From: an uncultured Clostridia bacterium
GTDB taxonomy: Bacteria; Bacillota; Clostridia; Christensenellales; Borkfalkiaceae
Direction: 5' to 3'
Length of the DNA stretch: 64,000 nucleotides
Assembly (NCBI GenBank): GCA_947626105.1
Contig: CANQQY010000001.1
Coordinates: 124,001 to 188,000 of the forward strand
Shown here: positions 30,082-50,170 of the stretch, piece by piece
How positions within the stretch are numbered: position 1 is the first letter of the stretch
How the letters are laid out: each line of letters begins with the position of its first letter
The notes under the pieces: model-generated
Database searches by the model: none
Told to the model about the DNA's origin: nothing
Seen by the model: only the letters and a program-made list of their open reading frames with translations
Made by a program: the position numbers and the translations under genes

Positions 30082-30195
30082 AGATTTTCACTAGTCTATT
30101 GTACAATATTTTCCCGAAAAATGAAAGCGATTTACAGGGGTTTTCGAGAATTTCATGCAATCGACAAAGAACGACACAGGAATACGCCTTAGGAG

Positions 30196-30618: not shown

Positions 30619-33600
30619 TCAATCCTCAAACATTCTGTTCACTTCGCCGTCGACAACAAGCGTAAACTTTGTGTGGTTGCCGATCAAGTTTTTCATGTCC
30701 TTCCCTTCCTCGGTGAAGGTGGGATTCTTGACGGTGATCGTGATCCCTGCTTTCCCTGCATCGTATTGGAACCCTCCGTCGAAAGTGCAATTATCAAGCA
30801 AGGTATCCACATACGGTCTGAAAAAGTTATAACTTCCGCCGTCCTTAAAGTGCGTATTGTAAACCTCAACTTTTCCGCCGCCGGTGGAGCCGAAGGAAGT
30901 CCAAGCTCCGATCTCACAGTCCTTGATGACGATCTTCGCGCCATTGGTCTGGTCGAAGTGAACGCCATACGTCCCGTTTTCGATCGTGCAATGGTCGATC
31001 GTGATCGTCGTACCTTTTGTGCCGTAAGAGGAGCCGATCGCCTTGAAACCGCCATTGAAGTGGCAACCTTTGATCGTTACATTCTCCGCCCCACTAAGGA
31101 TCTGAACAGATACATAGTTGGTTCCGGAAACGTCGAACGTGCAATCTTCAAGCGTGAAATTATCTCCGTGCACTTGAACTGCGCTACCGCTGTTATTGGT
31201 GCCGATTTCCGCTTTGAACGTCATGCCCTTCAATGTTACGTTATTGCCCGTAATATCGGTTTTCTTCCCTTCGGAGGGATTCACGTCGATAACGGTTCCT
31301 TCAACGCCTTCGATAACAACATTTTCAACGGATACTTTCGCCGACAAGGTGTAATGATCTGCACCGAGGACATAGGTCTCGCCTTCTTTCGCGCTCTCGA
31401 GAGCCCTCGCAAGATCTGCGCCTTCGCCGAGCGTCCACACATTGTCGTCATAGGAATATTGATTATTCCAGTTGATCTTCAAATCGTTGTTCTCGAGTGT
31501 AAGCCCGGTAAGAGGAATATTTTGCTTCGCATTTCCGATAAGCCCATAGTAATTAAGGCGCACCGATTTGTCTGCTATAACAGTCACCTCGCCACTGTTG
31601 CCGCGGAGTGTAACGTTGTTAGCTCCTCTGCCCGCAATCGCACCGACGCCGTTGGAATCTTCATCGTCTCCCGAGAATACCCGTTCAACGGTAAGGGTCA
31701 CACCGTCGATAATGCAATTCTCAATCACATTATTTGCCTGCGCGATCCCGCTGACAGCGCCGATCGCGGAATAGCCTGCCTTGGTTACTCTGATGTCAAT
31801 GTTGGTATAGCAACCGGAGATTGAGCTACTGCCTTCGCCAAGCCATCCTGCAATACCGCCGGCATACTGCCAATAGTTTTCAACATAGCTCCCGTCGTTT
31901 GCCTCAACGCGGCAATTTTCTACGTTGACATAGCCTTTCCCGATAATCACACCGGTATATTGACCGCCCTTAACGACCACTGTGCCCTTAACGACAACAT
32001 CGCTGATATGGGCGCCAGGGAAAGACTCTCCGACGACAACCGCAACGCAATTAGAACCGTCGTTGTGGAAAACATAGGCATTCTCTATCGTCAGATTGCA
32101 AATCGTAGCACTTTCGACTCTGCCAAACAGACCAAGATGCTGATTGTTGTGATTTTCGGGTGCAAGATTTGTTATATAGAGATTCGTAAGCGTGTAACCC
32201 TGCCCGTCGAAAGTTCCGGCGAAAGTCGCGCTTGCCTCGGAATTAGAAAATCCGATGGGAGCCCAAGGATCTTCCTCGCCGCCAAGGTCAAACCCTGCTT
32301 CAAGCAAGATAGTCGCACTCTTATAGTTATTGCCGGCGTTGACGCTGTCACGGAAAGCCTTCAAGCCCGCAAGATTGTAGATGTGGTAATCTCCAACCGT
32401 AACGGCGCCTTCAGCGTCCCAAGCGAAGTCCTGCGTGAAGCCCGCTTCTCCCTCTTCGTCACTTGCATACACAAGCGAGAGTGTGGTGTTGGTGAGGGAA
32501 ACCGCATAATCTTTGCTATCAGTTCCACCCAAAATGGTATAAGTGGATTCATTGACGGGATTAATCGTCACAGAAATTTTAACATCAGAGATTGATACAG
32601 GCGCGGACTTCGTCACAAATGCAACAACGGAACCCGCAAGTGCAACACCGACAGCCTCACCTTTATTGATAGCTGTAATTGTACAATCAATTTCTGCATT
32701 CGTAACGGTAAGCGAACCGCCGTCTTCCCAACCCATTATACCGCCTGCAACTGCACGCTGTGTATCATTTGTTGTACATGTAATGTTACCTTTACTGATA
32801 ACACCATTCATCTTATCGCTTTGACTTGATGAGCCAACAATACCGCCAACTTTGGGTTGAATCTTTGCACCAGGCTCTGCCGTTGCAATAATTTCTCCAT
32901 AGTTCGCAACTTCGGTAAACTCAAAGTCGCCTTGATGTGTTGTACCAATAATACCGCCAACGTTCAACTTGCTACTTGTCATTGCACCGCATGCGGTTGC
33001 AGAAATTGTACCATAGTTCGAGCAGTACTCAACAACCGTTTTTGCAGATCTCATAACATATGCTACCATGCCACCTGCATTTGTCTCGACCTTCTTGTCG
33101 GAATTACCAGTAGCCGTCAAGTTGCCGTGATTGACACAATGACTAAAAGTAACATTGGAATGCTGAATATGTCCTACGATACCGCCAACCTTTTCCTTTG
33201 CGGTGACAGATGCATAATTCGTGCAATTTGTAATCAAAACCTTGGGTGCATCGGCAGCGCTAAGGTCGCCTTCCCCCCATTTTTCGTCATCTTTCACATA
33301 GCCAACCAATCCACCACCGACTTTTTCAGAGCTAACTACGCAAGAATCTTTGACAACAAGGCCATTCAAAGTAGTTGCGCCCATTACACGACCTGCGACA
33401 ACAGCAACTTTTCCATCATTATACTTGTTGTCGATCATCGAATTGGCGAAAGATGTATTTTCAATAACATTGCCATCAACGACGCCAAAGAATCCCGCAA
33501 ATTCTCGATCCAAATTCACGACATGGATTCCATCGATCGTGTGGCCTTCGCCGTCAAAATTCCCGGTGAAAGGAGTGTCCTCGGTGCCGACGGGGGTCCA

Positions 33601-34689
33601 GTTGCCCGCGTCGTTTGCCGCAAGCGTGATGTCCGACTTGATGTGGACGTCAACGCCGAGCCACTTTGCAGCGTCCGCGCCGTTTACAAGTTCATTCCAA
33701 GCCTTGAGACCGTTTTCATCGTAGATCTCAATGTACAGAGCCGTAGATTGCTCTTTGTCGCCCTTGGGTCCTTTGTAGGCGACAGTCATGCCGTTTTGCT
33801 CATCAAGCCAAATCACGCTGTCTGCGGGAACCGTGAAGCTGCCGCCGACGACGGGAGCTTCATTGCCCACTTCGGGAACGTCCTCTCCGCCCTCCGTCTT
33901 GTTCACGATCTCTTGATTTTCATCGACGATTTCGGAATCGGTGGAGACATAGTAGCTTTCGAGCGTCAAACCTCCTGCGACAACGGAACCGACAAGCGCG
34001 CCCGCTTTGTTTGCAGCGGCCTGCTGTTGAGCTTCCGTCTCATTGGTTGCGCCTGCGCCGACCTTGACGTCGCGGACTTCGAGACCGGAAGCCTCGACCG
34101 CCTGCTCAACGACGACGCCCGCGATACCGCCCGCATAACCTACGTCGGTGGACTCGGGATTTTCTGCGTTCACGCCGTCAACGAACACGGAGATGTGTTC
34201 TGCGCTAAGGTCGGAAAGGGTGGCGCCGGCATATCCGCCGACAATACCGCCCGCGATCTTCACTGTCGCGTGAATGTTCCAGCTCGGTTCGCCGTCTACC
34301 GCCGCGACGCCGTTTGCGCCGTCGACATGGACGTCCTTCAATTCGCCGTAGCAAAGACCGACAACGCCCGCCGCATGGGTTTTCGCTTCCACATGAATGT
34401 TGCCGATAACGGAGACATTCTCGATGGAGCCGTAGACAAGGGTGCCGACAACGCCGCCGACGTGAGCGTCGCCCTTGAGCGTGACGTTTTCAATCGTCAA
34501 ATTCTTGATCGTCGCAGTTACGACCTGACCGCCGTTGGAGCCTTCCCATTGGGAAGCGTATCCGAAGAGTCCGAGCTCGCTTGCTTCGCTCGTATTCACA
34601 AGATTGAGGATCTTATGTTCCCTGCCGTCGAAGGTCCCGAAGAAGGGATGGGTTGCAGAGCCGATGGGCTCCCAATTAGTACCCCCCCC
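30619..34689 (-). CDS. Giant surface protein, C-terminal portion (out of frame with the rest)
   Basis: About 1,356 codons continuing the giant gene in another frame after the G9 tract at 34682-34690. The frame resumes within one module: the upstream part ends ...DLQDVENGG and this part continues TNWEPIGSATHPFFGTFDG. It carries about two and a half GLUG-type modules (GLFGYASQ..., LGLFGRVES...), then a right-handed beta-helix-like tail with short strands (AVQVHGDNFTLEDCTF, TITIDHCTIENGTYG, KIVIKDCEIG). The protein ends VVDGEVNRMFED, with no LPXTG, SLH or other wall anchor. No ribosome site was seen for separate translation, so it is expected to be silent unless the tract changes length. Confidence 0.8.
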   Translation of the reverse strand, partial: GGGTNWEPIGSATHPFFGTFDGREHKILNLVNTSEASELGLFGYASQWEGSNGGQVVTATIKNLTIENVTLKGDAHVGGVVGTLVYGSIENVSVIGNIHVEAKTHAAGVVGLCYGELKDVHVDGANGVAAVDGEPSWNIHATVKIAGGIVGGYAGATLSDLSAEHISVFVDGVNAENPESTDVGYAGGIAGVVVEQAVEASGLEVRDVKVGAGATNETEAQQQAAANKAGALVGSVVAGGLTLESYYVSTDSEIVDENQEIVNKTEGGEDVPEVGNEAPVVGGSFTVPADSVIWLDEQNGMTVAYKGPKGDKEQSTALYIEIYDENGLKAWNELVNGADAAKWLGVDVHIKSDITLAANDAGNWTPVGTEDTPFTGNFDGEGHTIDGIHVVNLDREFAGFFGVVDGNVIENTSFANSMIDNKYNDGKVAVVAGRVMGATTLNGLVVKDSCVVSSEKVGGGLVGYVKDDEKWGEGDLSAADAPKVLITNCTNYASVTAKEKVGGIVGHIQHSNVTFSHCVNHGNLTATGNSDKKVETNAGGMVAYVMRSAKTVVEYCSNYGTISATACGAMTSSKLNVGGIIGTTHQGDFEFTEVANYGEIIATAEPGAKIQPKVGGIVGSSSQSDKMNGVISKGNITCTTNDTQRAVAGGIMGWEDGGSLTVTNAEIDCTITAINKGEAVGVALAGSVVAFVTKSAPVSISDVKISVTINPVNESTYTILGGTDSKDYAVSLTNTTLSLVYASDEEGEAGFTQDFAWDAEGAVTVGDYHIYNLAGLKAFRDSVNAGNNYKSATILLEAGFDLGGEEDPWAPIGFSNSEASATFAGTFDGQGYTLTNLYITNLAPENHNNQHLGLFGRVESATICNLTIENAYVFHNDGSNCVAVVVGESFPGAHISDVVVKGTVVVKGGQYTGVIIGKGYVNVENCRVEANDGSYVENYWQYAGGIAGWLGEGSSSISGCYTNIDIRVTKAGYSAIGAVSGIAQANNVIENCIIDGVTLTVERVFSGDDEDSNGVGAIAGRGANNVTLRGNSGEVTVIADKSVRLNYYGLIGNAKQNIPLTGLTLENNDLKINWNNQYSYDDNVWTLGEGADLARALESAKEGETYVLGADHYTLSAKVSVENVVIEGVEGTVIDVNPSEGKKTDITGNNVTLKGMTFKAEIGTNNSGSAVQVHGDNFTLEDCTFDVSGTNYVSVQILSGAENVTIKGCHFNGGFKAIGSSYGTKGTTITIDHCTIENGTYGVHFDQTNGAKIVIKDCEIGAWTSFGSTGGGKVEVYNTHFKDGGSYNFFRPYVDTLLDNCTFDGGFQYDAGKAGITITVKNPTFTEEGKDMKNLIGNHTKFTLVVDGEVNRMFED

Positions 34690-37600
34690 CGTTTTCAACA
34701 TCTTGAAGATCAATATCGTTATGGAGCGCAACGGTCTTTCCTGCGAAGTTGGCGCCGCCATTGACGAGGTCGCGGAAGTATGCAAGGCCGTTCGCGGAGT
34801 AGACGACGTATTCGCCGTCATACTCCCCGGAATAGACCTGTGCATAATCGTTGACACTTGCCGTGCCCTGCTGAACTTTGATCTCGCCGTTGTTGACAGG
34901 GTCGCCGTTCGTGTTGGATTCACCTGCCGACCAACCGACAAGGTATTCGCCGTCGTTCGTGAAATCGCTCTGGAATTCGCCGTCGAAGGTGATCGTGACA
35001 ACGCAATCCTTATCGATCGTCACGCCGTAGGAGCTGTTCGCGCCGTTGATACCCGTGATCGCACCGACGCCGCAGCACTTTTCGGTGAAGTCCGCCTCAC
35101 CCTTTACGGGGTTCTTAACAGACCATACAAGGTTGACAGTGCCTTTCAGGTAGCTGTTCGTGATCGTCTGTGTGTCGAAAGAGTGACCCGAGAAGGTACC
35201 GACCTGTGCGCCGTATGCGGTGAAGTTTTCGATCGTGAGATTGTTCACATGGTTTGCGCCCGCATAGCCGAAGAGACCCGCTTTGCCTTCATGATCCGCA
35301 ACGACCTTCATGTTCTTGATCGTGTGACCGTTACCGTTAAGGGTGACCCAGTGGCCGTCCAGTGCAACCCAGTTGTATTCATGACCCTGCGCGTCGGTCA
35401 TGAGATCGACATTGTCCATGTCGATATCGTTGAGAAGGTTGATCGTGAAGCTCAAACCTTCACCTGCCCCAGGGAACAGTTCGCCGTCACCATGGTTATT
35501 GTCGACAAAGACGAGCTGTGCCGGCGTGGAGACACTGACTTCGCGGATACGGCCGCCCTCAATTCTGTCGATCTGAATGCTCGAGTTCACCGTAACATTT
35601 TCAAGCGTCACATCACTCAAAGTGAGAACTCCGTTCGCTGCACGGGTGCCGCCGACAACTTCGCTGGGCTTGGTGCCGCTCTGTGCACCGCTCGGATAGG
35701 TGTAAAGCGCTTCGACAGTAACGTCTTTCACGCTGACGTGTTCCATACCGCCGCAGACGGAGGAGCAGAACTCACCGACAACCGCGCCGACGAAGAGATT
35801 CGCCATATTGTCCTTGGCGTAGTCATCAGTGCAGAAACCAAGCACCTCAACGTTTTCAAGCGTGACGTTGGTGATGTGGAAACCGCTATTAGGGTTCGTC
35901 ACGTTATTTGCCCTGTTGTAGTAGCCGACCGCGCCGCCGACCTTACGGGAGCCCATGACAGAAATATTCTTGACGGTGAGGCCGTCATAAGTGTAAGTGT
36001 CGCCCTCGCCCGTGTAGCCGATGATACCGCCGACGTTGTCGCCCTCGAGCTGAGAAACAATGCCATTCTCGTCGACTGCGGCAACGCCGTCAATGTGGCT
36101 CTGCAAGTCGTCTGCTTCGACTGTGGCATTCTGAATGTTGCCATAGCCGCTGCCGACCACGCCGCCGACCTTGTAGTTACCGACGATCACAATATGGCCG
36201 CTGACTTTTACGTCCTTGACCCAAACGGAGGAGAAATACCCGCCGACTACGCCGCCGATCGAAGTTGAACCGGAGACGATAGGATCGATCACTTCGACCC
36301 CTTCGATCGTGGTGTGATCATTCGCGTGACCTACGAGAGCGCCGACGCTATCCTTGCCCGAAACAACGGGATTGAAGATTTTGACGTTCTTGATGACCGC
36401 ATTGCCGTCCGTGTAACCGAAGAGACCCGCGTAGTCAAGCGTACCCACCTTAAAGACGCTGTGTTGAAGGCTTCCGTCGCCAATCAAAAGGCCGCGAACC
36501 GTATAACCTTGTCCGTCAAAAGTGCCCTTGAAGGGGTTCTGGCAAACTTGCGTGGGCTTATTGTTGACTTGTTTTTCTTCCCACTTTGTACCGCCGATCG
36601 GAGTCCATTCGCCGCTAAGGGTGACATCGTTCTCGAGGTAAACAGTTTCGCCATTGAAATCGTGGCCGCCGTTCACCATGTCGCGGAAGGTCTTCATGCC
36701 CGCTTCATTGGAAACATAGTAGCCGTCTTCTTGCGCCTTGAGGCCATTCCAAATGACTTCGATATCGTTGTCCGAGAACGTAGGGATTTCGCCTTCTTCC
36801 GTGCCGCAAGGACCCGAAAGGCCTTTGTTGGTCATGAGCGCATCCGGTGCGATGATCGTGACGGATCCCGTGTTGCCGCTGTAAGTAGCCGCACCGCCGT
36901 TCGGAACGAGTGCGCCCGTGTACCGCTCATAGACGCGGAAATTTGTTTCCACAAAGTCGCCATCTTTTGGCGTCTTGCCGTCGATCCCGATTGCGCTGAC
37001 GTCGATCGTGACGTCAACGAGCCTGTTGTCGGAGACGGTCACGTCTGACTTATGATCGGTACCGCCGAGGACACCGCCGACCATGCCATAGCCGTCATCC
37101 GCATTCTCTGCGCTCTGCGCAAGTGCAAGCAACTTGACGCTGCCGACCACATTGCCACTGACTGTCGCTTCGGTGTGTTCACCCGCAACAAATCCGACGA
37201 TGCCGCCGAGTTTGTAATTCTGGACAGAGAGTGTACCGACGGTGACCGCGCAACCATCAACGTGCGAATTGCCGCTCATGTGACCGACAACGCCGCCGAC
37301 CCACGTACCGCCGACGATCGTTGCATTTTGGATCGTAACGTTCGTGACCGTGGAATCCGTGATGCCGGACGCAAGCGCGCCGACAAATTCCGCCTTAGGT
37401 GCATTGATGTTTGCCTTTTCGATGACGAGATCCTTCACGGTTGCGCCATTGAGGTTGCCGAACAAGCCCGTCGCATATCTCGCCGTTGCGCTTTCGATCG
37501 TCAAACCCGTGATCTTTTTGCCGGTGCCGTCGAACGTGCCTTTGAAGGCATGGGCGCTATCATTCCCGATAGGCGTCCAGTTCACCCCCCCCAAATCAAC

Positions 37601-40600
37601 ATTTTGAGTGAGAGTGACGGTTTTTTCCGCAAAGTCGATCCCGCTGTTGACGAGGTTCGCGAAGTAGCGAAGACCGTATGCGGAGGAAACGCTAAGAGAT
37701 TCGACCGTAAACGTTCCGTCTTCGTTATACCCGCCCGTAAGGATGTAGTCCTCTCCGTAAAGGTTGCCCGAGAGCTCGGAAGAGCCGCTGTCGACCGTAA
37801 TGGACGTCGACGTGATCTTTACCGTGGAGGCCTGTGCTCCTTTAAGGTAGCTGCGGTAGCTGCCGACGAGGCCGAAGTTGGGAAGATCCGAAAGCTCATA
37901 GAGACGCAACGTATCATCACCTTCAAGTGCATACGCATTGACTCTGGTAATGGAGCCGTTGAACGAAGAATCGGTGATGGTGACAAGATGATCGCCAGCC
38001 TCCGCCGAGTCAAGTTCTGCCGTACCGATGAGACCGCCGACCATTGAGTAATAGACGGAGGTATCGACGCTGTTATAGTACCAAGCAAAGTTCATGTAGA
38101 CATTGCCGCCGACTTTGACGTTCGTGAGCGTCTCGCTTCCGAACGCGGTACCGATGAGGCCGCCGACCGCAAAGTTGCCATCGACCCAAGCATTCACAAC
38201 AATAACATTCGTCAAAGAATCGTGCATGGAGAGACCGATGAGGCCACCGACCATGATACCGCCCTTATCGTTGACACGGATCGTGCAGTTGGCTTGAATG
38301 ACATTGTACGTGCAGGACTGCGACGCGCCGACAAGACCGCCGACCGCATTGCCGCTGTAAGTGCCTACACCCGTAACGGTAACGGAAGCACCCTCTTCAA
38401 TCGTGATGTTGGAGAATGCGACATTTGCAGCATAGCCTACAAGCAGACCGGAATCGTTACGATCGCCATGCGCTGTACCGTTCACGGTAACAGTGTTGAC
38501 GCCTGCGATGGTGAGGTTTTTGATTACGACCTCTGTCGGATTCACTTCGTTCTTACCAACAGCGCCGAACAAACCGACGAACCGAGAACCCGAGACGTTG
38601 ATGTTGGAGATCTTGTGATTCAAGCCGTCGAAGGTGCCCATGAAGCGAGCGCCGTCCGTACCGATCGGCGTCCACGCCTCGCCAAGTTCCGCGAGGTCGA
38701 TATCCGCCGTCAAGAATACGTGCTCATCCTTAAAGTCTTTGCCGCCGTTGACCTTTTCCGCAAATGCTTTGAGGCCCGCCGCGCTGTCGATCAGGTAACC
38801 CTTGGTAACTTCGCCGGTGCTGTCTGCTACTGCGCCGTAGAAGAGCCCATCGGGAAGTTCTTCTTCCGTCGCATTGGTGACTTTGGAAGAGGAATCGGTG
38901 ATCGTCGTTGTGCTCGAATCGAGAGCTTCGCCGACAAAGGCGTGCTCAGACTTATCGAACTCTTCAACAGAAGAAGTGAGCTCACCTTCGAACGTGCTCT
39001 TCTCGATCGTGTTATTATTGCTTTCCTGAACGGAACCGAGGATACCGCCCGTATGAGCCGACCTGCCCGTTACATTGGCTTGAACGGTGATATCGCTCAA
39101 AGTAGCGCCGTACGCAAGCGCACCGGCAAGACCGCCAGCCCAGTTACCTTCCACATTGAGGTTGGAAGAAACTTTATTCAAGTTGGACTGTTGAAGGTGA
39201 CCCGTCAAACCGCCGACCTGCGCGCCCGCATGATCCGTAGTATCGTCAAACGACGACTTCGCATAGCTCTGCGCTTCGTCCGTGTAGGACGCATTGATCG
39301 TTACGTTCGAGATCTTGTCGTTCGTGATATAACCTGCAAGACCGCCGACAAAGTCGCCTGCCGTCTCGATCTGGATAAGCCCTTGGATCGTGACATTCGC
39401 AATGCCGCCCTTTGCCGCGTCGCCGTTATTCGTCCCGGCAAAGCCTGCGAGCGCACCGACGTAGTCTACCCTTTGAGCGGTGACTTTGATCGAAACATTC
39501 TCGATCGTGAGATTGGAGATGCCCGCAGAATCCTCATAAATTTCGTTATTGACATACCCGAAGAAGCCGAGATAGTTGTGCTCTGCGGACGTGATGATGA
39601 GGTTCGAGACGGTGTAATTCTGCCCGTCGAACACGCCTCTGAACGGGTGGTCGCTCGTTCCGATGGGCGTCCATTCCTCGGCCCCCTCTCTCGTCGCCAA
39701 AGAGCGGCGAGAAAGAGGTTCTGCTACTGTCGGCACACTAAGGTCGATGTCGCATTCGAGTTGAACGGTTTCACCTTCAAAACCTTCCTTGAAGGTCTTA
39801 CGGTTGTGTGTTGTTGCTCCGTCGTTCACAAGGGTGCGGAAAGTTTCGAGACCTTCTTTGGAGACGATATGCCAAGCGTTGTTGTCTTTGATGAGACCCT
39901 TGTCATTCTTATCCGCCCCGTGGAGGATGGTCACGTCGATCCTATGGTTGTCGTGGTCATCGCCGTCGACGTTGACGCCGTGCGCAGCCGCTTCCTCGGC
40001 AGTGTAACTCATCCTACCGATCATCCAATCGACGTACTGATCCTGATCGGCGTCGACGTGTTCGTACTCTACCTTGTAGCCCGCCAAGCCGTCGGGATCT
40101 ACTTCCATGTAACCGTCGCGCTTGATGGTGAGGTTCACGTTCTTGACGGTATTCCCGGTGGCGTCGAGGGCGCTGCCGTTGTCAATACCTGCGAGACCGC
40201 CGAGATCCTTATATGCGGTGAGTTTCGATTCCGCAACCGTATTATCAGTGAACTGTGCGCCCTTGCTGAATCCGACGAGACCGCCGAGCTTCGCGCCGTA
40301 GTCAAACTTCGGAGTCGAATCCTTCATGATCTTTTCGGGGAACGCCTGACCTTCGAGACCGACGACAACGACATTCTCGTATCCTTCAACGCCGATATCC
40401 CAAACGCCTTCGGAGCAGTCGTTATGACCCGCGATACCGCCGACATAGCTGTGACCCTTGACGACAGCGTTTGCAACGGTGATGTTGCTGAATGCCGTAG
40501 CCTTGCCCGTACCGACGACAACGCCGACGGAAAGGTTACCGGTGACCTTTGCATTTGTGATGTTGAGGTCTTTGATGACCGCACGGCTCGTACGACCGAA

Positions 40601-43600
40601 GAGACCCATGTTGTTGCCGTTTACGTCTGCCTCTGCCTCGGTGTGGGCGTTGTGGCCTTCCACGGTGAGGTTAGAGATCGTGTAAGCGTTTGCGTTGAGT
40701 GTGTACCCGCTGTCTTTGCCGTCGACCATGATCTTGACGGCTTCGCCTGCGGTTTCCTTATACGCAGTGAAGATGCCTTGGAATACTGCCTTAGGAGTCT
40801 CGTTCGGGCCGACTGTTTCGTCTGCACCGATCGGTTCCCAATCTTCGCCTGTAAGGTCGACATCCGCAAGCAGGTGGACAGTTTCACGGATGATCGTCTT
40901 GTGGTCGGGAAGCTGTTCGGCATATGTGTTACCGCCGTTGACCTGATCGCGGAAGAATTTGAGACCTTCTTCCCCCGTGATCTGGTATTCGGAAGTGACT
41001 TTGTTTTCACCCTCCTCGGTGAACCAGTCGGTATCCTGGACGAACGTATCCGTCGCGTCCGCATCATTCTTATAATGAACGACGTCGAGCGTGGAGTTCG
41101 TGATCGTGACCGTGCCGGTCGTTGTTGTCGTGTAGCCGCCGACAAGACCGTAGTTCTCGTACTTCGTCGAGGAAGCATTCTTCCAGCCGACGCGGGTAAG
41201 CGTACCCATGAAGTGCGCATCGTTGACGTTGAAGTCGGAGCTTTCCGCACCCTCACTCACGGTGAGCGCACCGACGATACCGCCGATTTGAAGGGTTGTT
41301 GCCTCCTGCACAGACGACGCTTTGAGAACCGCGCCGGAGTAGACGGGAGCTGTCGTTCCGATCGTGACGCCGTCCTCGGCAACGCCGACAACACCGCCGA
41401 CCTTGAACGAACCGCTGACCTTGACATTTCCGTCAGAGACGTACTTATCGCCTTCGTCATACTTCACGCCAACGTAGATGTCGTCGAGCTTGCAAGCCTT
41501 TGCGATACCTGCGACCGCGCCGACGTTCGGCGTATCGGTCGTTTCGATCGTAAGACCGTTCACGGTGACGTCGGAGATGGAGCCGCCGTCGATACGACCA
41601 ACGACTGCGCCCGCGTTCCCAACATAGCCTTTGAGCTCTGCGGTCGTTACGGTGATACCGGAGATCGTCGTTTTCTCTGCAAGGGCGACAAGAGCGCCGG
41701 TGCTGCGCGAATCAGCGGTCACGTTGATCGTAACAGTCGTACTAAGAATGTCGAGATTGGAGAGCGTTGCGCCGTCCGTGTGACCGAAGAAGCCGACGAG
41801 ATCGCCCGTACCCGTGTATTTGAGATTCAAGATCTGCCAATTACCGGCCGATTCGCCTTCGCCGTAGCTGCCGTCGAAGGTGCCCTTGAAGGCGTGCTCG
41901 CTGTTGCCGATCGGCGTCCAGCTCTCGTAAGAGCCGAGGTCGAGCTGGTGCTCTGCGTTCAACTCGTCCGCAAGTTTGACCGTCTTATCTTCGCCTGTCC
42001 ACGAGCCTGCGTTCACGAGGGACGCAAACGTGTTGAGACCGACAAGCGAGAAGTTGTAATAGGTATCATATTTCTCGGCAAGAAGATCGCTAAGTCTGCG
42101 GCCGAACTGCTCGCCGATGACGATGTGGATATCCGCCTCGGAGCCTTCGGCGACGTAGCCCTTGAGCGCTTCCGCCATTTCCTTATCCTGCGTGGATTCG
42201 AATCTGCTCGTATGACCGAAGATGAAGTCGCCCTTCGTGATCTTGCCGTCATCATTGAGGACAAGGTTGTAGCCGATGAAGTCGTAGCAGTTATCCGTCG
42301 AAACGCCGCTCACAAGGTCGAAGTCGACAGCGACAGCTTCGCCGTTCACGTTGACCTTATTGTCGTTCGTGATGAAGATACGAGCCTTTCTCGGGCCACG
42401 ACCCGTGTCCGATTCTGCGGAGACGAGCGAGTAACCTTTTGCCTTCTCGGCGTTCTCCGGGTCGCAGACAACGTTGATCGTGTTGCCCTTCATCCAGACT
42501 TCGTACTCGTCAGTCTCGGACGATGTTGCAAGGTCGATGAATGCAGACCTGTTGCCGCCGGATTTGCCGCTGATCGCGCGTGCCGCGTCGGTGTAGACCG
42601 TGTTGTTCTCGACCGTGATCTTCGCGCCCTTTACGATGCGGAAGAACTTCACGACAGCCTCGTGGTAAGGCTTATCGGCCGAACCGAATACGTTGCCGCT
42701 GATCTCGGAGCCGTCTTTGATCGTTGCATACGCGAAGATTGCAGTCGCAACGTCTTGATACTGATCGCTCGTCGCGCTCTCGTTGGAGAGCACAACGTTG
42801 TTCGTGAATACGAGTTTTGTCGTGACGACGCCATTATTCGACGAATGCCCGAGAATGAACGTTGCATACATTCCGCTGTATCTTTCGGGAACAATGTCTG
42901 CGTAGCAGTTCGTCACGGTGAGGGCGTCGACGACGGGAGCCACACCTTCTGCGCCCGCGCTCAAATCGATGTAGCTGTTGCCCGTGAACTTGATACCCGT
43001 GAAGGTAAATTCTGCCGTAGGAGCCTTATCGTTCACGTTGGTGTTGAAGCCGCCGAGACGGAAGATCTCGTTGTTGACAACGGCTGTGTAGTTGTGATTC
43101 GAAGCGGTTTCTTCTGCGCCGAGCGTGTCGCCTGTGTAGGTGACGGTCGCGTTGCCGTCGCCGTTGGTCGTGGCCGCGAAGGTCACATCGCCGATCGAGA
43201 TCGTGATGTTGGAATTGGTCACAACGACCGTAGGCGTTCCTGCATAGAAGCCGAACGGAGCCGCCGCAAAGTCGCTTGCCTTCGCCGCACCTACACCGTT
43301 CAAGAGCTGTACCCATGCGTCAACGGTGACGTTGTCGATCGTCGCGTCTTTGGAAACGACCTTCGCGACCGTCGCCTTCGTGGCGTCTGCGTCGCCCGCG
43401 AGCTTGTTGATGTTGAGGTCGCCGAGGACGAGGTGCTGTACGGTACCTGCGAGGTTGCCGAACAGAGGCCCGTAGAGACCGACGATCTTGTAGGTCGGAG
43501 TGCCCTCGAAGCCGTAGCCGCCGTTGAATGTACCTTCGAATGCGTAGGTTTCGTTACCGATACCGACCCAATTCGTCTGGTAGGACACCATGTTGATATC

Positions 43601-46600
43601 GCTGCCGAGCGAGACGTCTTCACCCTCGAAGGTGACGCCGTGATTGACGAGTTCCGCAACATTGGCAAGACCAAGCGCAGTCCTTGCGATTACGAGAACG
43701 TTCGCCTTGCCGTGTGCAACCGTGCCGTTGAAGAAGTTTACCGAGAGGTCAAGGTCGGTCGCCGTGATGTGCGCGTTGACCGTGCCCGTGTATGCCGTAT
43801 TGCCGAACACCGAACCCGTGCTAAGAGAGGAGTCAACCTGAACCTCCGCCGCGGGAAGGACGCCCTTGCCGTTTGCCCAATCGTCCGTCGCTACGCCTTC
43901 GAGCGCGGAGCCGACGAGGCCGTAGTTGTAGACAAGGTAGTTGAGGTTATTCGCCTCGTGGTTGTTCGTGAGCGTGCCTTCGAAGTACACGCCGCTGACC
44001 GTAAGGCCGTCCGCCGCGCCGACGAGCGCGCCGACCGAGCGTGCGTGCGCCGCATCCGTCGGGGTCGCCGTAACGGTACCGTAGACGGAAATGTCAATGA
44101 GGGTGGAGTTCTTCGCAACGCCGATGACCGCACCGACATTGTCCGTACCCGTGACGTCAACGCCGTCGAGAACGAGGTTCTTCACCGTCGCACCGTCGGT
44201 GAGCCCGAAGAGGCTACCCGTGAGACCGGTAATGCTGTGGCCCTGACCGTCGAAGGTGCCCGCGAAAGGAACCTTTGCAGGGCTGTTCGTGATAGGCGTC
44301 CACTTCGTTTCCGCACCCATTTCAATGGAGGCGGTCAAGACGGCTTTGAGCAGCTTGCTTTCCTCTGCGGAAGGCTGATAGGACGTTCCGACCACGTCGA
44401 ACATTTTGCTGAACTCGAGGAGGCCGTTCTCGTTCCCGATTTCGAGAACGCCGTCGTGCATATAGAAGCCATCGGCAAGTTTCGCATAGAGATGATTCTC
44501 GCCGCTGATGGTGACGTTGGTAGCCTTGTCTCCCGCTGTACCATGTTTGATTCCGACATAACCATCATTCCATACATAGCTTGTATGTTGATTCATTGTG
44601 GCGCTTTCAAACTGATGAGGAGTTCTACGGAATTCGCCATCGAAGGTGACATTGCTTACCGAGATGTTCTCGCCGTCCGTTGCAATACCTGCAACAGCGC
44701 CGATATACATACCCTGGGCACCGCCCACACCTGCATGCTTGGTTTTGGCAAAATTCCAGCCACCGGTAATTTCCAAGATAACATTACTAAGCGTTGCGCC
44801 ATCGACGACTGCACCATGCTGAATGAAACCCGCGATACCGCCCGCAAGGTGACAACCGCTTACGGTGATGTTTTCAACGGTGAGATTCTTGAAGGTGTTG
44901 CTTGATCCCTCGCCTGTGAAGCCAGCGATACCGCCGATGTAATCGGTGCTCACCGAAACATCTTGCTGAATTACGCTACCGCTGTCCTTCGTTGCAAGGA
45001 CTTTTACCGTGTCAAGAGCGGAGTACTCGCTCCGACCGACCACGCCGCCGACGTCTACGTTGCCGGTGATGTTGATCGTGCCCTGAATGGTTACATTTGT
45101 AAGGGTTGCCTGATAAGCGCGTGCGACAAGTGCACCAACGCCTTCGGTTCCCACTATGGTACTATCTGTCACAGCATTGATCGAGACATTTTTAATGATA
45201 ATGTCGTGAAGTTTTGTACCGGTATTCCCTGCATAACCGAAGAGACCTGCATTGTTGCATGTTCCACTGATTGCAAGGTTTTGCAATTTGTACTGCTCCT
45301 CACCGAGCTTCATCGAGAAGTCACCGCTGAAAGGAGTCGTCGCTGTGCCGATCGGCGTCCAATTGGTGATGTTCGCTTCTGCAAGGTCGATGTCAGCCGC
45401 CTGAACGACATACAGGCCGGAGAAGTTTTTCGCGTTATCTTCGTAAGCGCCTGTGCCGTTGACCATGTCGCGGAAGGAGCCGAGACCAAAGGCGTTGTTG
45501 ACGTAGTAGTGATCCTCGTGGTCCGCAACGTGCTGGACGAATCCGAGAGGATCTTCGAACGCAAGGTCGATGATCCAAACTTCATGTCCCTTTCCGGGCG
45601 TGACCTTATTCCCCAATTTCGCGGGTGTGAACTGATGCCCTTCGCCGAAGTCGGCGCCGAGGTAGACCTTGCCCGTATACATATTGAATTCGTCGCCGTC
45701 GATCGTGCCGGCCTCGAATGCGATGAAGTCGAAGCTGTTCTCACTCGACGTCTTAACAGCCTTGTAGAGGTTGGCTTCGCCGTTGAGGGTGTTGCCCGTG
45801 CCGAGGAGATAGACCTGCGCATGGCCTTCGCCCGTGACGGAGAGGAAGTTGCCGCCTTCTGCGACCACGGCGTTCGTATCGAACTTCGCCGCGTAAGGCT
45901 CTGTTCCCGTCGAATCGCCAAGGGTGAACGCCGCAAAAGCGTTGCCCGCGCCGTAGACGGTGTTGCCCGAGATCGTAAGCTCGGCATTCTCCGCCATGGA
46001 CGTGAACTTGACTGCCGCGAGGGTGTAGCCCTTCTTGTCGCCCTCTGCGCCGAAGGTGTTGCCGGTGATCGTCGCTTTGGCGAGCTTGGTGTTGATAAGG
46101 ATCGCCATGCTGTCCGTATCGGGGCTCCGTCTGCCCGGCAGTGCAGCGTCGTTATCCGCTGTGGACTGTGCGGAAAGAATCGTGCTGTCCTCAATGGTGA
46201 GTTTGAGCGCGTTCGCGCGTTCTGCGGACGAAGGTCTGCTGACGATGAACGCCGCGTTGCCCGACCTGTCGGACCCGGCCTGAAGGTAGCCCTTTCCATC
46301 GGACTTGCCGTCCGCATTGCGTCCGCAAGCCTCGACGGGGTTGACGTCTGCATAGCAGTCTTTGAGCGTCAAGGATTTGGCGTCCGTCACGTCGATATAA
46401 GTGCTCTGACCGGAATTGTCTTCAAACTTGACGTGTTCAAACGTGAAGTCTGCATTGCCGAGTTCGAGCTTCCGGTTGCGGATCACGAGCAGGTAATCGT
46501 TTGCGCTGCTCAAAGCGATGCCGGCAGCCGCAGGCGTCTTGCCCGTAATCACAACGGAAACTTCTCCTTCGGCGTCCCACGTGACGACGACCTTGCCTGC

Positions 46601-49600
46601 GTTGTTCTCGAGTTCGAGTGTGACATTGATGAACTTCGTCCCGTTCGTCGCCGACTTCGCGAGACCGTAAGTGTCTTTGAGGAGAGAAGTCTTGTCGCCA
46701 AGGGCAAACGTCGAAAGCGTAAACTCGTCGAGCGTTCCCTTGACATGGAGATTCTGGATCGTTGCGTTGTCGAGGTACCCGAAGAGCGGATCTTTGAGTC
46801 CTTCGATGTAAAGCCCTTCTTCGCCGCCGTCGAAGATGCCCTTGAAAGGCGTATCTTCGGTTTCGCCGATCATGCCGAAATCTTCGTCCTCGGGGATCGT
46901 GACTCTGCCCGTGAGCGTGACGGTCGTCTTTTCACCCATACTATCTTCATACGGGTTCGGATCCTTTCCTGCGATGTCGCCGTTGACGCTGTCGCGGAAG
47001 GCGCGGAGTGCGTCATAGTTCGGGATCTCATAGTTAGGCGTGCCCGTAATCTCGGAACGCATATCGACGTGCATGTTCCACTTGCCGTTGTTGCCGTCGG
47101 CGTCGGTTTCAAAGATGTAGATCCTGAATCCCGTGTATCCGCTGAACGGATAGTAGGTTTGCAGATAGAAGTCACCCTTGATGTGACCTTCGGTCGCCTT
47201 GATGAAGCCTTCATCTTCGGCATCAAGGATAGGATCGTATGTACCGTAGTACCAAACGGTGCCGCGGTCTTCCGAATCGGTGAGCTTGCCGAGGAGTTCC
47301 CATGCGGACTCGCCGCTCGGCTGAGGCTTCTTCTGCCAAATCGTCTTTTCAACGGTGTTGAAGTAGACGTCCCAATCGTTCGCGTCGTCGAGAAGCGCTT
47401 TGAGATCTGTATCGGCGTCGGCGGGATCGACTTCGCCGCTGAGCCACTTGGTGCCCGCAAGAGGATCGTCGGAATTGACAGCCTGCCAAGTCTGCACGCC
47501 CTCTGCGTCGACAGACGTGAGTGTGTAAATAATGCCGTGTTTGGTTTCGAAATAGTAGTCGCCGACAAGCGCGCCCTCAACATGTACGGGCGTCTCTTTG
47601 CCGTTGAACCACTTGCTGCCGCGGTCGCCCTTCTCGCCCTTCGTCGTGAAGATGTTGACCCACGCGCCTTCCTGCATCTGATAGATGTCGCCGGTGGCCG
47701 TGTTGAGATACATATCGCCGTTCTTCGCATCTGCGACATAGACTTTTTCGTTCTCAACTTCTTGTTCTTTCGCCAAGACGGGTTCGCCCTTGCCGCTATA
47801 CAGATAGTTGCCGCGTTCGCCCTTGATGTTGAGCTTCTTCGTCCAGGAAGCGGACTCTTCGCCGAGCGCCGCGTTGCTGACGTAAACGTCGCCCGTCAAC
47901 GTATCGAGGTAAAGGTCGCCGTAAACGCCGCTTACGTTCAGCGCGTTAGGATCGCCTTCGCCCGTGTGCCACGTGCTGACATAGAAGCCCGTGGGTCTGC
48001 CGTTGAGATACCATGCGCCGTGGACGTTCGTGATCGTGTCGCGCAAGGTGACGATCTTTTCCCACGTGCCGGTTGCGGCGTCGCCTTCCAACACATACAC
48101 GTCGCCCGTGTTGACGTCGAGATAGAAGTCGCCTTCGTAGACGTTCGGGCCGGTGTAGTTTTCACCGTCCGCCGGAGACGTCGACGTGACGGGCTTGCCT
48201 TGACCGGAATGCCAAACGGTACCGTTCTTGCCGTCTTCGCCGGCCGCCTTCACTCCCGTGTCGTGGGCGCCGATCTGCCAATTGCCGTCATCATTGATAT
48301 AAGGCGTGTCGCCCGGCCTGCCGTCAGCGCCGACTGCGGGACCGAGATCCTGATCGCCGATGTGCCAATGATTATCTTCGCCGATGTAAGGCGTCTTGCC
48401 GTCTTCGCCCTTCTCACCGCGCGCGGGAATGCCCGTGGGCGTGTTGCCGACCCACCATTCGCCGTCTTCGATGTGGGGAACTTCGGGTTCGACCGTGAGA
48501 TTCACGAGTTCCGTCCAATCGCCCGCGTCCTTTATATATATAATGTTAGAGGAGCTGTCGAAATAGTAATCGCCGTCACGGGCTTCCGCAGGATCTTCTG
48601 CCGAGGGTTTGCCCTCGCCGTGGTACCACTTTGTACCGGGGTTGCCCTGTTCGCCCTGCGCGCCGAAAGATACGGGTTCGCCCCAACCCGCTACACCACT
48701 ATAAGTACCGTATGTATAGAGGTTGTGATTCGCCGTATCGTAATAGATATCGCCCTCGTGGAACTCTATTCCGTCAAGGTCGTGATTGTCTTGAGGTGCG
48801 ACGGTGCCGTAATACCACTTATTCCCGGGGTTGCCTGCGCTCCCCTGTATCGTGATCCCGAGATCCGTCCACGTCTCTACGCCTTCGGCGTCCTGACGCT
48901 GATAGAGTTTCCCGGTCGTCGTATCAATATAGAAGTCGCCATTCTTGGAGTCGGCAACAGGCGTATGATCATTGGGATCGCCTTGGCCTTTGAGCCACTT
49001 CTGCGCATCGCCCGTTGCGCCGGTTGCGCCGAAGGGAACGCCGTCGCCCCATGCCGAACCGTCGTAGGTGTAGAGAAGGTGATTTTCCGTATCGAAATAG
49101 ACGTCGCCCTTGTGGAGATCCTGATCCTTGAGGGAAGGAGTATCCTGCGTGGGTTCGCCGGTGCCGCTATACCACTTGTTGCCGGCGCTGCCGGAATCGC
49201 CCTTCATGGAGATACCGGTGTCGTCCCATTTGTCAGCGCCCTTCTTATAGATCTCGCCCGTTTCGTTGTTGAGATAGAAGTCGCCGACATTCGCATTCTG
49301 CAACTGCTCGTAAAGCGTGGGATTGCCCTCTTGGGTGATCGTGTTGGGATCGCCTTCGCCGAAATACCATGCGATCTCTTCCTGGGGAGCGGGCTCCTTA
49401 TGAAGGTTGCCGATCGAATCGCCCCAACCGGACGCGCCTTTCATATAGACGTTGCCCGTAGCGGTATCGAGATAGAAGTCGCCGACTTTCGCCGATGCGG
49501 GCTTGTCGTTCGTGGGCGCACCCGTATCGGTGTACCATACCGAGCCGTTGACGTCGGTCGCGGGAGCTGCCTCGACCGTGACAACGTCTTTCCAATGGCC

Positions 49601-50170
49601 GTCGGTACCCTTCTGATAGAACGTCGTTGTGCCCTCGGCGGTCTGCACATAGAGATCGCCGATGGCGCCGTTGGCGTCATTGGGCGCTTCGGAGCCCGAC
49701 GTCATCGTCGGAAACGCCTTGTAGTCGGACTTCGTATCGCCGAAATACCAATACCCATCCAAGCCGATCTCGGGCGTAATACCGTCCGCCGCTTCGGCGC
49801 GGACGTTGGTATTCTTCCCGTCGACCCACCAGTAGCCGTCTTTGATCTCGGGGGCTTTGCCGTCGCTTCCCTTCATGTTCAGGACGACGTCTCCCCATCC
49901 CGTCGCGGACTTGCAGTAGACATCCCCGGTCTCTTCGTTGAGGTAATAGTCGCCTTCAACGCCGAGGTCGTTCCCGGGAACGCCTTTCCCCTTGTGCCAA
50001 ACCGATCCACGGTTGCCCGGTTGTTCGGTCTGGGGGTCATCACTGAGATCACCGTTCGACATGCCGATGCCGAGCGTCGTGATAGCCGCGATCATGAGAC
50101 AAGCGCATACTATGATCAGTACGAGCAATGCAATAAAGCCCTTGTCTCTTTTCTTGCCGTTAGCACTCAT
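34676..50170 (-). CDS. Giant modular cell-surface protein (GLUG modules), frame-interrupted by a poly-G tract
   Basis: 5,164 aa as sequenced, ending at a TAA directly after the G9 tract. Start ATG 50170 has AGGAG six nt upstream. Residues ~11-37 form one membrane helix (FIALLVLIIVCACLMIAAIT) after a basic N-terminus: an uncleaved anchor or signal. Residues ~50-1040 hold about 14 fibre-like repeats of the pattern W-x-G-x-G-x-P ... GDFYLDTxTGxVY ... W with collagen-like GxxG links. From ~1040 on, ~12 modules follow the plan RDxVNGG - WTPIG - FxGTFDGxGHxI - GLFGxxxGAxIKNLTI - VGALVG, the GLUG/beta-helix type seen in adhesins. No sortase motif. With one G fewer the gene encodes 6,516 aa. Adhesion or surface coating is inferred; own promoter at 50304. 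Confidence 0.85.
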   Translation of the reverse strand: MSANGKKRDKGFIALLVLIIVCACLMIAAITTLGIGMSNGDLSDDPQTEQPGNRGSVWHKGKGVPGNDLGVEGDYYLNEETGDVYCKSATGWGDVVLNMKGSDGKAPEIKDGYWWVDGKNTNVRAEAADGITPEIGLDGYWYFGDTKSDYKAFPTMTSGSEAPNDANGAIGDLYVQTAEGTTTFYQKGTDGHWKDVVTVEAAPATDVNGSVWYTDTGAPTNDKPASAKVGDFYLDTATGNVYMKGASGWGDSIGNLHKEPAPQEEIAWYFGEGDPNTITQEGNPTLYEQLQNANVGDFYLNNETGEIYKKGADKWDDTGISMKGDSGSAGNKWYSGTGEPTQDTPSLKDQDLHKGDVYFDTENHLLYTYDGSAWGDGVPFGATGATGDAQKWLKGQGDPNDHTPVADSKNGDFYIDTTTGKLYQRQDAEGVETWTDLGITIQGSAGNPGNKWYYGTVAPQDNHDLDGIEFHEGDIYYDTANHNLYTYGTYSGVAGWGEPVSFGAQGEQGNPGTKWYHGEGKPSAEDPAEARDGDYYFDSSSNIIYIKDAGDWTELVNLTVEPEVPHIEDGEWWVGNTPTGIPARGEKGEDGKTPYIGEDNHWHIGDQDLGPAVGADGRPGDTPYINDDGNWQIGAHDTGVKAAGEDGKNGTVWHSGQGKPVTSTSPADGENYTGPNVYEGDFYLDVNTGDVYVLEGDAATGTWEKIVTLRDTITNVHGAWYLNGRPTGFYVSTWHTGEGDPNALNVSGVYGDLYLDTLTGDVYVSNAALGEESASWTKKLNIKGERGNYLYSGKGEPVLAKEQEVENEKVYVADAKNGDMYLNTATGDIYQMQEGAWVNIFTTKGEKGDRGSKWFNGKETPVHVEGALVGDYYFETKHGIIYTLTSVDAEGVQTWQAVNSDDPLAGTKWLSGEVDPADADTDLKALLDDANDWDVYFNTVEKTIWQKKPQPSGESAWELLGKLTDSEDRGTVWYYGTYDPILDAEDEGFIKATEGHIKGDFYLQTYYPFSGYTGFRIYIFETDADGNNGKWNMHVDMRSEITGTPNYEIPNYDALRAFRDSVNGDIAGKDPNPYEDSMGEKTTVTLTGRVTIPEDEDFGMIGETEDTPFKGIFDGGEEGLYIEGLKDPLFGYLDNATIQNLHVKGTLDEFTLSTFALGDKTSLLKDTYGLAKSATNGTKFINVTLELENNAGKVVVTWDAEGEVSVVITGKTPAAAGIALSSANDYLLVIRNRKLELGNADFTFEHVKFEDNSGQSTYIDVTDAKSLTLKDCYADVNPVEACGRNADGKSDGKGYLQAGSDRSGNAAFIVSRPSSAERANALKLTIEDSTILSAQSTADNDAALPGRRSPDTDSMAILINTKLAKATITGNTFGAEGDKKGYTLAAVKFTSMAENAELTISGNTVYGAGNAFAAFTLGDSTGTEPYAAKFDTNAVVAEGGNFLSVTGEGHAQVYLLGTGNTLNGEANLYKAVKTSSENSFDFIAFEAGTIDGDEFNMYTGKVYLGADFGEGHQFTPAKLGNKVTPGKGHEVWIIDLAFEDPLGFVQHVADHEDHYYVNNAFGLGSFRDMVNGTGAYEDNAKNFSGLYVVQAADIDLAEANITNWTPIGTATTPFSGDFSMKLGEEQYKLQNLAISGTCNNAGLFGYAGNTGTKLHDIIIKNVSINAVTDSTIVGTEGVGALVARAYQATLTNVTIQGTINITGNVDVGGVVGRSEYSALDTVKVLATKDSGSVIQQDVSVSTDYIGGIAGFTGEGSSNTFKNLTVENITVSGCHLAGGIAGFIQHGAVVDGATLSNVILEITGGWNFAKTKHAGVGGAQGMYIGAVAGIATDGENISVSNVTFDGEFRRTPHQFESATMNQHTSYVWNDGYVGIKHGTAGDKATNVTISGENHLYAKLADGFYMHDGVLEIGNENGLLEFSKMFDVVGTSYQPSAEESKLLKAVLTASIEMGAETKWTPITNSPAKVPFAGTFDGQGHSITGLTGSLFGLTDGATVKNLVLDGVDVTGTDNVGAVIGVAKNSTLIDISVYGTVTATPTDAAHARSVGALVGAADGLTVSGVYFEGTLTNNHEANNLNYLVYNYGLVGSALEGVATDDWANGKGVLPAAEVQVDSSLSTGSVFGNTAYTGTVNAHITATDLDLSVNFFNGTVAHGKANVLVIARTALGLANVAELVNHGVTFEGEDVSLGSDINMVSYQTNWVGIGNETYAFEGTFNGGYGFEGTPTYKIVGLYGPLFGNLAGTVQHLVLGDLNINKLAGDADATKATVAKVVSKDATIDNVTVDAWVQLLNGVGAAKASDFAAAPFGFYAGTPTVVVTNSNITISIGDVTFAATTNGDGNATVTYTGDTLGAEETASNHNYTAVVNNEIFRLGGFNTNVNDKAPTAEFTFTGIKFTGNSYIDLSAGAEGVAPVVDALTVTNCYADIVPERYSGMYATFILGHSSNNGVVTTKLVFTNNVVLSNESATSDQYQDVATAIFAYATIKDGSEISGNVFGSADKPYHEAVVKFFRIVKGAKITVENNTVYTDAARAISGKSGGNRSAFIDLATSSETDEYEVWMKGNTINVVCDPENAEKAKGYSLVSAESDTGRGPRKARIFITNDNKVNVNGEAVAVDFDLVSGVSTDNCYDFIGYNLVLNDDGKITKGDFIFGHTSRFESTQDKEMAEALKGYVAEGSEADIHIVIGEQFGRRLSDLLAEKYDTYYNFSLVGLNTFASLVNAGSWTGEDKTVKLADELNAEHQLDLGSYESWTPIGNSEHAFKGTFDGSYGEGESAGNWQILNLKYTGTGDLVGFFGHTDGATLSNLDILSTTVTINVTADSRSTGALVALAEKTTISGITVTTAELKGYVGNAGAVVGRIDGGSISDVTVNGLTIETTDTPNVGAVAGIAKACKLDDIYVGVKYDEGDKYVSDGNVKVSGSFKVGGVVGVAEDGVTIGTTAPVYSGAVLKASSVQEATTLQIGGIVGALTVSEGAESSDFNVNDAHFMGTLTRVGWKNASSTKYENYGLVGGYTTTTTGTVTITNSTLDVVHYKNDADATDTFVQDTDWFTEEGENKVTSEYQITGEEGLKFFRDQVNGGNTYAEQLPDHKTIIRETVHLLADVDLTGEDWEPIGADETVGPNETPKAVFQGIFTAYKETAGEAVKIMVDGKDSGYTLNANAYTISNLTVEGHNAHTEAEADVNGNNMGLFGRTSRAVIKDLNITNAKVTGNLSVGVVVGTGKATAFSNITVANAVVKGHSYVGGIAGHNDCSEGVWDIGVEGYENVVVVGLEGQAFPEKIMKDSTPKFDYGAKLGGLVGFSKGAQFTDNTVAESKLTAYKDLGGLAGIDNGSALDATGNTVKNVNLTIKRDGYMEVDPDGLAGYKVEYEHVDADQDQYVDWMIGRMSYTAEEAAAHGVNVDGDDHDNHRIDVTILHGADKNDKGLIKDNNAWHIVSKEGLETFRTLVNDGATTHNRKTFKEGFEGETVQLECDIDLSVPTVAEPLSRRSLATREGAEEWTPIGTSDHPFRGVFDGQNYTVSNLIITSAEHNYLGFFGYVNNEIYEDSAGISNLTIENVSIKVTAQRVDYVGALAGFAGTNNGDAAKGGIANVTIQGLIQIETAGDFVGGLAGYITNDKISNVTINASYTDEAQSYAKSSFDDTTDHAGAQVGGLTGHLQQSNLNKVSSNLNVEGNWAGGLAGALAYGATLSDITVQANVTGRSAHTGGILGSVQESNNNTIEKSTFEGELTSSVEEFDKSEHAFVGEALDSSTTTITDSSSKVTNATEEELPDGLFYGAVADSTGEVTKGYLIDSAAGLKAFAEKVNGGKDFKDEHVFLTADIDLAELGEAWTPIGTDGARFMGTFDGLNHKISNINVSGSRFVGLFGAVGKNEVNPTEVVIKNLTIAGVNTVTVNGTAHGDRNDSGLLVGYAANVAFSNITIEEGASVTVTGVGTYSGNAVGGLVGASQSCTYNVIQANCTIRVNDKGGIMVGGLIGLSMHDSLTNVIVVNAWVDGNFAVGGLIGTAFGSETLTNVKVGGNVYMNFAWYYNSVDTSVYYSMVGGLIGTAELDSAEAGDHLVTITDSSFNGSITRVNAYALEGDDTLRLYELSDLPNFGLVGSYRSYLKGAQASTVKITSTSITVDSGSSELSGNLYGEDYILTGGYNEDGTFTVESLSVSSAYGLRYFANLVNSGIDFAEKTVTLTQNVDLGGVNWTPIGNDSAHAFKGTFDGTGKKITGLTIESATARYATGLFGNLNGATVKDLVIEKANINAPKAEFVGALASGITDSTVTNVTIQNATIVGGTWVGGVVGHMSGNSHVDGCAVTVGTLSVQNYKLGGIVGFVAGEHTEATVSGNVVGSVKLLALAQSAENADDGYGMVGGVLGGTDHKSDVTVSDNRLVDVTIDVSAIGIDGKTPKDGDFVETNFRVYERYTGALVPNGGAATYSGNTGSVTIIAPDALMTNKGLSGPCGTEEGEIPTFSDNDIEVIWNGLKAQEDGYYVSNEAGMKTFRDMVNGGHDFNGETVYLENDVTLSGEWTPIGGTKWEEKQVNNKPTQVCQNPFKGTFDGQGYTVRGLLIGDGSLQHSVFKVGTLDYAGLFGYTDGNAVIKNVKIFNPVVSGKDSVGALVGHANDHTTIEGVEVIDPIVSGSTSIGGVVGGYFSSVWVKDVKVSGHIVIVGNYKVGGVVGSGYGNIQNATVEADDLQSHIDGVAAVDENGIVSQLEGDNVGGIIGYTGEGDTYTYDGLTVKNISVMGSRKVGGAVGYYNRANNVTNPNSGFHITNVTLENVEVLGFCTDDYAKDNMANLFVGAVVGEFCSSVCGGMEHVSVKDVTVEALYTYPSGAQSGTKPSEVVGGTRAANGVLTLSDVTLENVTVNSSIQIDRIEGGRIREVSVSTPAQLVFVDNNHGDGELFPGAGEGLSFTINLLNDIDMDNVDLMTDAQGHEYNWVALDGHWVTLNGNGHTIKNMKVVADHEGKAGLFGYAGANHVNNLTIENFTAYGAQVGTFSGHSFDTQTITNSYLKGTVNLVWSVKNPVKGEADFTEKCCGVGAITGINGANSSYGVTIDKDCVVTITFDGEFQSDFTNDGEYLVGWSAGESNTNGDPVNNGEIKVQQGTASVNDYAQVYSGEYDGEYVVYSANGLAYFRDLVNGGANFAGKTVALHNDIDLQDVENGGGY
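34682..34690 (-). other. G9 homopolymer tract that breaks the giant gene
   Basis: Nine C on the plus strand (G9 in the mRNA) encoding GGG GGG GGG, followed by TAC TAA. Eight (or eleven) G would read GGG GGG GGT ACT AAT TGG, restoring the conserved TNWEPIG of the module. Candidate phase-variation switch, or a homopolymer error. Confidence 0.8.
37585..37592 (-). other. G8 homopolymer tract in the giant gene, in frame
   Basis: Reads GAT TTG GGG GGG GTG AAC TGG (DLGGVNW) directly before the WTPIG motif. This is the same module position as the G9 tract about 2.9 kb downstream in the gene. A change of one base would truncate the protein here. Confidence 0.75.

Follow-up and report, generated by a model that had tools for sequence, protein, structure and literature searches.

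A G9 tract dividing a giant surface-protein gene of an uncultured Clostridia bacterium: a candidate phase-variable locus in a genome with poly-G promoters

Background

Phase variation by slippage has its best-documented cases in small-genome pathogens and, among gut bacteria, in bifidobacteria. In the stretch of DNA analysed here (64,000 nucleotides from an uncultured Clostridia bacterium, referred to as the window), a 19.5-kb gene is read as two long frames, abutting at a run of nine G. Is this break a switch, by which a giant surface protein is made in two lengths, an accident of sequencing, or the start of a decay? The original prediction had chosen the first answer, describing a candidate phase-variable, adhesin-like surface protein under a "classic" homopolymer switch. 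If true, uncultured Clostridia commensals would vary their surface stochastically, and poly-G tract lengths would be a signature countable in existing metagenome reads.

The locus was compared within its genus group (103 genomes), where one genome stands for each species, and alleles are compared between species. The relatives are rabbit-gut metagenome-assembled genomes (MAGs), labelled "uncultured Clostridia bacterium"; the contigs of G031 and G098 are NODE-named rabbit-gut MAG contigs. The genome of the window is indicated as G000.

Results

Two long frames meeting at nine G

The coordinates of the described features are reported in Table 1. Read on the minus strand, an ATG at 50170 opens 5,164 codons, closed by the G9 tract, one sense codon and TAA: the upstream frame ends in ...DIDLQDVENGGGY-TAA, while the downstream frame, offset by one, picks up at ...GGGTNWEPIG and runs from 34680 to 30622, for 1,353 codons, without a stop. 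The reading frame is therefore set by a homopolymer lying within it. The gene spans 19,552 nt, that is 6,517 codons with one base in excess, and besides the G9 no further frame break is found in its 19.5 kb. In all these points the original prediction is borne out: nine G where the frames meet, TAA soon past them, resumption with TNWEPIG, 6,517 in-frame codons with one G fewer and, as assembled, a 5,164-aa form deprived of the C-terminal ~1,350 residues. The expression signals, which it had described as intact, are also in place: the ATG, the AGAGGAG ribosome site, a TTGACT-17-TATAAT promoter and a stem followed by a T run.

Table 1. Location of the features described in the text; positions without a contig name refer to the window.
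Feature	Position	Strand	Basis
Giant surface-protein gene	30619..50170	minus	two abutting long frames, +1 frame shift at G9; single-frame orthologue in G031
Upstream frame, 5,164 aa + stop	34676..50170	minus	translation; Pfam Peptidase_M26_N
Downstream frame, 1,353 aa + stop	30619..34680	minus	translation; AlphaFold model and Foldseek
Site B, G9 tract, frame-breaking	34682..34690	minus	sequence
Site A, G8 tract, in frame	37585..37592	minus	sequence; species comparison
Promoter TTGACT-17-TATAAT, TG-extended	50304..50332	minus	promoter scan; conserved in G031, G052, G098, G033
Ribosome binding site AGAGGAG	50177..50183	minus	sequence; conserved in related species
N-terminal hydrophobic segment FIALLVLIIVCACLMIAAITTLGIG, presumed membrane anchor	50063..50137	minus	translation; inference from sequence
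G-rich repeat region common to lipoprotein paralogues	approx. 47066..50011	minus	own-genome protein search
Terminator-like stem-loop, then T run	about 30571..30601	minus	sequence
SecA, downstream neighbour kept in G031 and G033	27083..30172	minus	Pfam; ORFs of G031, G033
Poly-G-spacer promoter	G000 C2:8868-8894	minus	sequence
Poly-G-spacer promoter	G000 C7:44064-44094	minus	sequence
Poly-G-spacer promoter	G000 C7:47649-47679	minus	sequence
Poly-G-spacer promoter	G000 C12:22008-22038	plus	sequence
Poly-G-spacer promoter	G000 C20:24084-24110	plus	sequence
Poly-G-spacer promoter	G000 C25:9816-9842	minus	sequence
Poly-G-spacer promoter	G000 C30:3345-3371	plus	sequence
Poly-G-spacer promoter	G000 C31:1966-1995	plus	sequence

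A separate second gene, located 3' of the tract, was considered and discarded: the downstream frame reaches its first ATG only at codon 297, and none of the possible starts before it is preceded by a convincing ribosome site, a GTG at codon 270 having a weak motif.

In the promoter of the giant gene, the spacer is fixed at 17 nt and free of poly-G. The 5' leader, about 137 nt long, consists of TGTATGACATAGAGTCTAT and then of an alternating, CGCG-rich stretch. The segment comprising promoter and leader (window 50170-50332) is strongly conserved in G031, G098, G052 and G033, being much more alike than the coding region; an element of the leader may play a part.

Architecture of the protein

The upstream frame encodes a presumed N-terminal membrane anchor, G-rich WYYG..GDFYLNTxTGxVY repeats, and beta-helical modules resembling GLUG and M26_N. 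Pfam Peptidase_M26_N is matched in its middle and distal portions (1.7e-17 and 3.9e-9), while Glug matches single modules below threshold; of the M26 peptidases only the N-terminal region was matched in the Pfam search, the catalytic C-terminal metallopeptidase domain being absent from the matches. For the module of G031 that contains site B, a beta-helix is predicted, in which a loop holds the residues encoded by poly-G (mean pLDDT 75.7); its best PDB match by Foldseek is 3n6z from Bacteroides ovatus, putatively an IgA1 protease (E 1.3e-4). Further GLUG-type modules follow in the downstream frame, up to a C-terminal right-handed beta-helix, predicted for the last 330 residues (AlphaFold from one sequence, moderate confidence); by Foldseek, this model resembles polysaccharide lyases and the pneumococcal adhesin PfbA, with a low TM-score. 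The protein is a putative adhesin by its architecture only (anchor, repeats, beta-helix), the fold being of the GLUG/IgA-protease N-terminal kind, with a pectate-lyase-like tail. The position of the hydrophobic segment suggests that both forms of the protein would be anchored to the membrane.

G tracts in the gene and in the genome

A second tract, G8 at site A, lies 974 codons upstream of site B and is in frame, its codons (CTG-type Leu, GGG GGG, Val) reading L-G-G-V. The number of tracts is no argument in itself: the window contains 4 matches to G8, with a mean of 3.2 in dinucleotide shuffles, and the presence in the giant gene of 2 of the 30 tracts of G8 or longer found in G000 is marginal (P about 0.05), so that a G run, taken alone, is unremarkable. 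The tract as a numerical oddity was therefore set aside. In-frame G8 tracts are present in other long ORFs too. What departs from chance is the codon make-up, together with the reappearance of the tract at one site in orthologues: GGG accounts for 6.6% of the Gly codons of the upstream frame, and GGG-GGG occurs at 3 of its 51 Gly-Gly pairs, all three within tracts.

Loss of mismatch repair was also discarded as a driver, MutS and MutL being encoded in all nine genomes checked. Since both are present, and G9 is short, the slippage rate may be modest. Of the "classic switch" of the original prediction, the homopolymer setting the frame is retained; "classic" is not, with a tract short for a highly mutable one and mismatch repair in place.

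Other runs of G000 are reported here as side observations. Four G8/G9 tracts fall within 7 kb of a mobile-element-like region (C3:101414-108022), containing genes for a helicase loader, a replication initiator, an HNH endonuclease and a Holliday junction resolvase; two of the four are located in the final codons of an ORF. Other intergenic G8/G9 runs belong to repeated GC-rich palindromic elements (aggctccgccgtaggcggtggtgggg...), for example at C1:45579, C3:155195, C13:4979, C21:16736 and C29:218.

Poly-G promoters of paralogous lipoproteins

A search for G9 runs in the same genome led to eight promoters of the form TTGACA-(7 or 10 nt)-G8/G9-TAAAAT, three of which read G9. Six of them head genes for shorter surface lipoproteins, paralogous to the giant protein, which share its WYYG..GDFYLNTxTGxVY repeats and whose N-terminus is lipoprotein-like; two of these six genes run off contig ends. 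The other two promoters precede genes outside the family, for a 215-aa lipoprotein-like protein and a 509-aa zinc-ribbon protein. The same design is found in related species, mostly ahead of lipoprotein genes, with tracts from G8 to G11. Altogether, 25 promoters of the exact form are present among the genus genomes searched, none of them at the giant gene, with spacers of 12, 15 (14 sites), 16, 18 and 19 nt. Most are 15 or 19 nt long and none of the 25 measures 17 nt, which may indicate either OFF alleles or a fixed architecture.

The second possibility deserves the most attention among the alternatives considered. Promoter poly-G might be a constant element, such as a regulator site, unrelated to slippage, and the coding tract could then draw no support from it. 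The exact 15-nt spacer at 14 of 25 sites, the lack of 17-nt ones, a constant G8 in several flank classes and the two promoters lying outside the family are in its favour, but G8 and G9 are found on identical flanks in three classes, ATCAAAAACC, AAAAAGC and AAAAATC (between copies and species), and tracts reach G9 to G11 in other species. A fixed architecture is therefore considered rather doubtful, although the best surviving of the alternatives. As at porA, poly-G is interposed between recognisable -35 and -10 sequences, and its length differs among otherwise identical promoters.

Alleles of related species and constraint on the tail

The nearest orthologue, from G031, adjoins SecA as in the window and is open throughout its 6,642 codons, in one frame. 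Its site B carries G8, in frame, with flanks 64% (upstream) and 69% (downstream) identical to those of the window. In G098, the gene is likewise broken by a G9 at the position matching site B, with the frame shifted in the same direction as in the window, into parts of 5,117 and 1,936 codons (counted from stop to stop); this tract lies 994 codons past site A (974 in the window), although its module is only about 37% identical to that of the window, which makes the match less certain. An in-frame G8 (G031) and out-of-frame G9 (window, G098) are therefore seen, between species, at one site. At site A, the four species compared (G031, G052, G098 and that of the window) all carry G8, in frame. Three long single-frame homologues (G033, G044, G089) have no G8 tract in the gene; orthologue length ranges from 5,726 to 6,642 codons. 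The comparison of alleles, which the original prediction had called for in strains and metagenomes, is available between species, as G8 in G031 and G9 in G098.

Two candidate alleles were rejected: the G8 of G052 belongs to site A, and a G9 beside W-x-P-I-G in G030 is a chance occurrence, outside any giant gene. Two further runs may be mentioned. One contig of G026 starts with G13 beside a WTPVG module (C123:1-14), hinting that the assembly broke where a poly-G tract was present in more than one length; a search for the partner contig end found none. The longest run among related genomes, G17, is located in G098 (C34:13853-13869).

A simple Nei-Gojobori count over well-aligned codons of the window and G031 gives a dN/dS of 0.31 for the upstream part and about 0.22 for the downstream one. 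The part lost in the short form is under purifying selection; its low ratio indicates that the tail was kept as protein through most of the divergence of the two genes. This value mostly reflects time before the present allele, and provides no dating of it.

These data bear on the remaining alternatives. An assembly or sequencing error, with a true, invariant G8 and an intact gene, would agree with a draft genome of 32 contigs, with the disturbance of Illumina reads by G tracts (PMC9187656) and with the G8 of the intact G031 orthologue. Against it, the break is the only one in 19.5 kb, the neighbouring G8 of site A is in frame, a break of the same kind is found at the matching position of an independent genome, G098, and G9 also occurs at three promoter copies of the same genome: such an error is judged unlikely. 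An equally low probability is assigned to a one-off slip which permanently shortened the protein in this lineage, leaving the tail at the start of its decay. The shortness of G9, the presence of mismatch repair genes and the wide variation of orthologue length fit this explanation, but the 1,353 downstream codons are stop-free and strongly constrained, and the split of a second species at a matching position would have to be an independent coincidence. It is chiefly G031 and G098 that make a contingency locus more likely than either an ordinary artefact or simple decay.

At programmed recoding sites, the break is usually retained in all orthologues. Slippage of RNA polymerase or ribosome on the G run, yielding both forms from one DNA, is very improbable here: homopolymers are potentially slippery for both (PMC3711429), and both forms could be useful, but the intact orthologue, with its G8, is read in frame and needs no recoding, and the same genome features poly-G in promoters, where recoding would be meaningless.

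Discussion

The best explanation is slipped-strand phase variation affecting the giant protein at its distal tip, as one part of a larger set of poly-G tracts in rabbit-gut Clostridia; a probability of roughly 0.7 is assigned to it. The intact G8 orthologue, the second G9 split, purifying selection on the tail and the poly-G promoters of paralogues uphold the designation of candidate phase-variable surface protein. Replication slippage at site B would lengthen or shorten the tract, by a base or more. With the length of the intact orthologue (G8 in G031), translation would read through, giving a protein of about 6,500 aa; at G9 it would end just past the tract, giving the 5,164-aa protein. The short form is predicted to keep the membrane anchor, the repeat stalk and most beta-helical modules, and to lose the distal 1,353 residues, including the C-terminal beta-helix. 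Since the anchor and most modules are retained, the switch should change the presentation of the tip, and not remove the protein. To our knowledge, switches that cut off only the last fifth of a giant anchored protein, and spare the rest, are rarely discussed. Changes of tract length in the -35/-10 spacers of the lipoprotein genes would, in turn, alter transcription. Slippage within the population, its reversibility, the promoter lengths corresponding to ON, surface exposure and any binding role are components of this explanation that we infer.

A broader proposal, for which the odds appear even, is that in this genus poly-G acts in two layers over one paralogous repertoire, by promoter switching of the lipoproteins and tip switching of the giant protein. 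With the same balance of probabilities, the giant protein would then be constitutively transcribed, and the coding tracts would be held at fixed module positions by unusual codons.

The kind of mechanism is already known, from porA, Helicobacter canadensis and Bifidobacterium breve. In the literature searched, nothing specific was found on such a poly-G system in Clostridia, nor on promoter and coding tracts acting over one protein family. In B. breve, an intragenic G tract in sortase-dependent pilus genes was shown to vary within the population, switching pili ON and OFF, with strong slippage at G11 and a much weaker one at G10 (PMC9187656). The likeness is close: a gut commensal, a surface-structure gene with poly-G, abutting frames joined or parted by tract length, and a downstream frame devoid of its own start. 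Unlike the ON/OFF pili, the short form of the giant protein would keep anchor and most modules, and the alleles compared here are those of different species. For C-terminal phase variation in H. canadensis, read data gave ranges of length, for example G8-11 (PMC2823697). There, as here, the homopolymer lies far into the gene, its length alters the C-terminus without abolishing the protein, and promoter tracts are present in the same genome; here, in contrast, the part concerned amounts to about 1,350 of 6,500 residues, in a member of the Clostridia. At the porA promoter of Neisseria meningitidis, 11G, 10G and 9G are tied to levels of expression (PMC3639595), while the eight poly-G promoters described here serve a paralogous lipoprotein set. 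Finally, the giant protein resembles GLUG-motif proteins and the N-terminal beta-helix of M26 IgA1 proteases, as indicated by Peptidase_M26_N, weak Glug matches and 3n6z; it differs from them in lacking a match to the M26 catalytic domain, in its thousands of residues of repeated modules and in its predicted N-terminal anchor, with no LPXTG.
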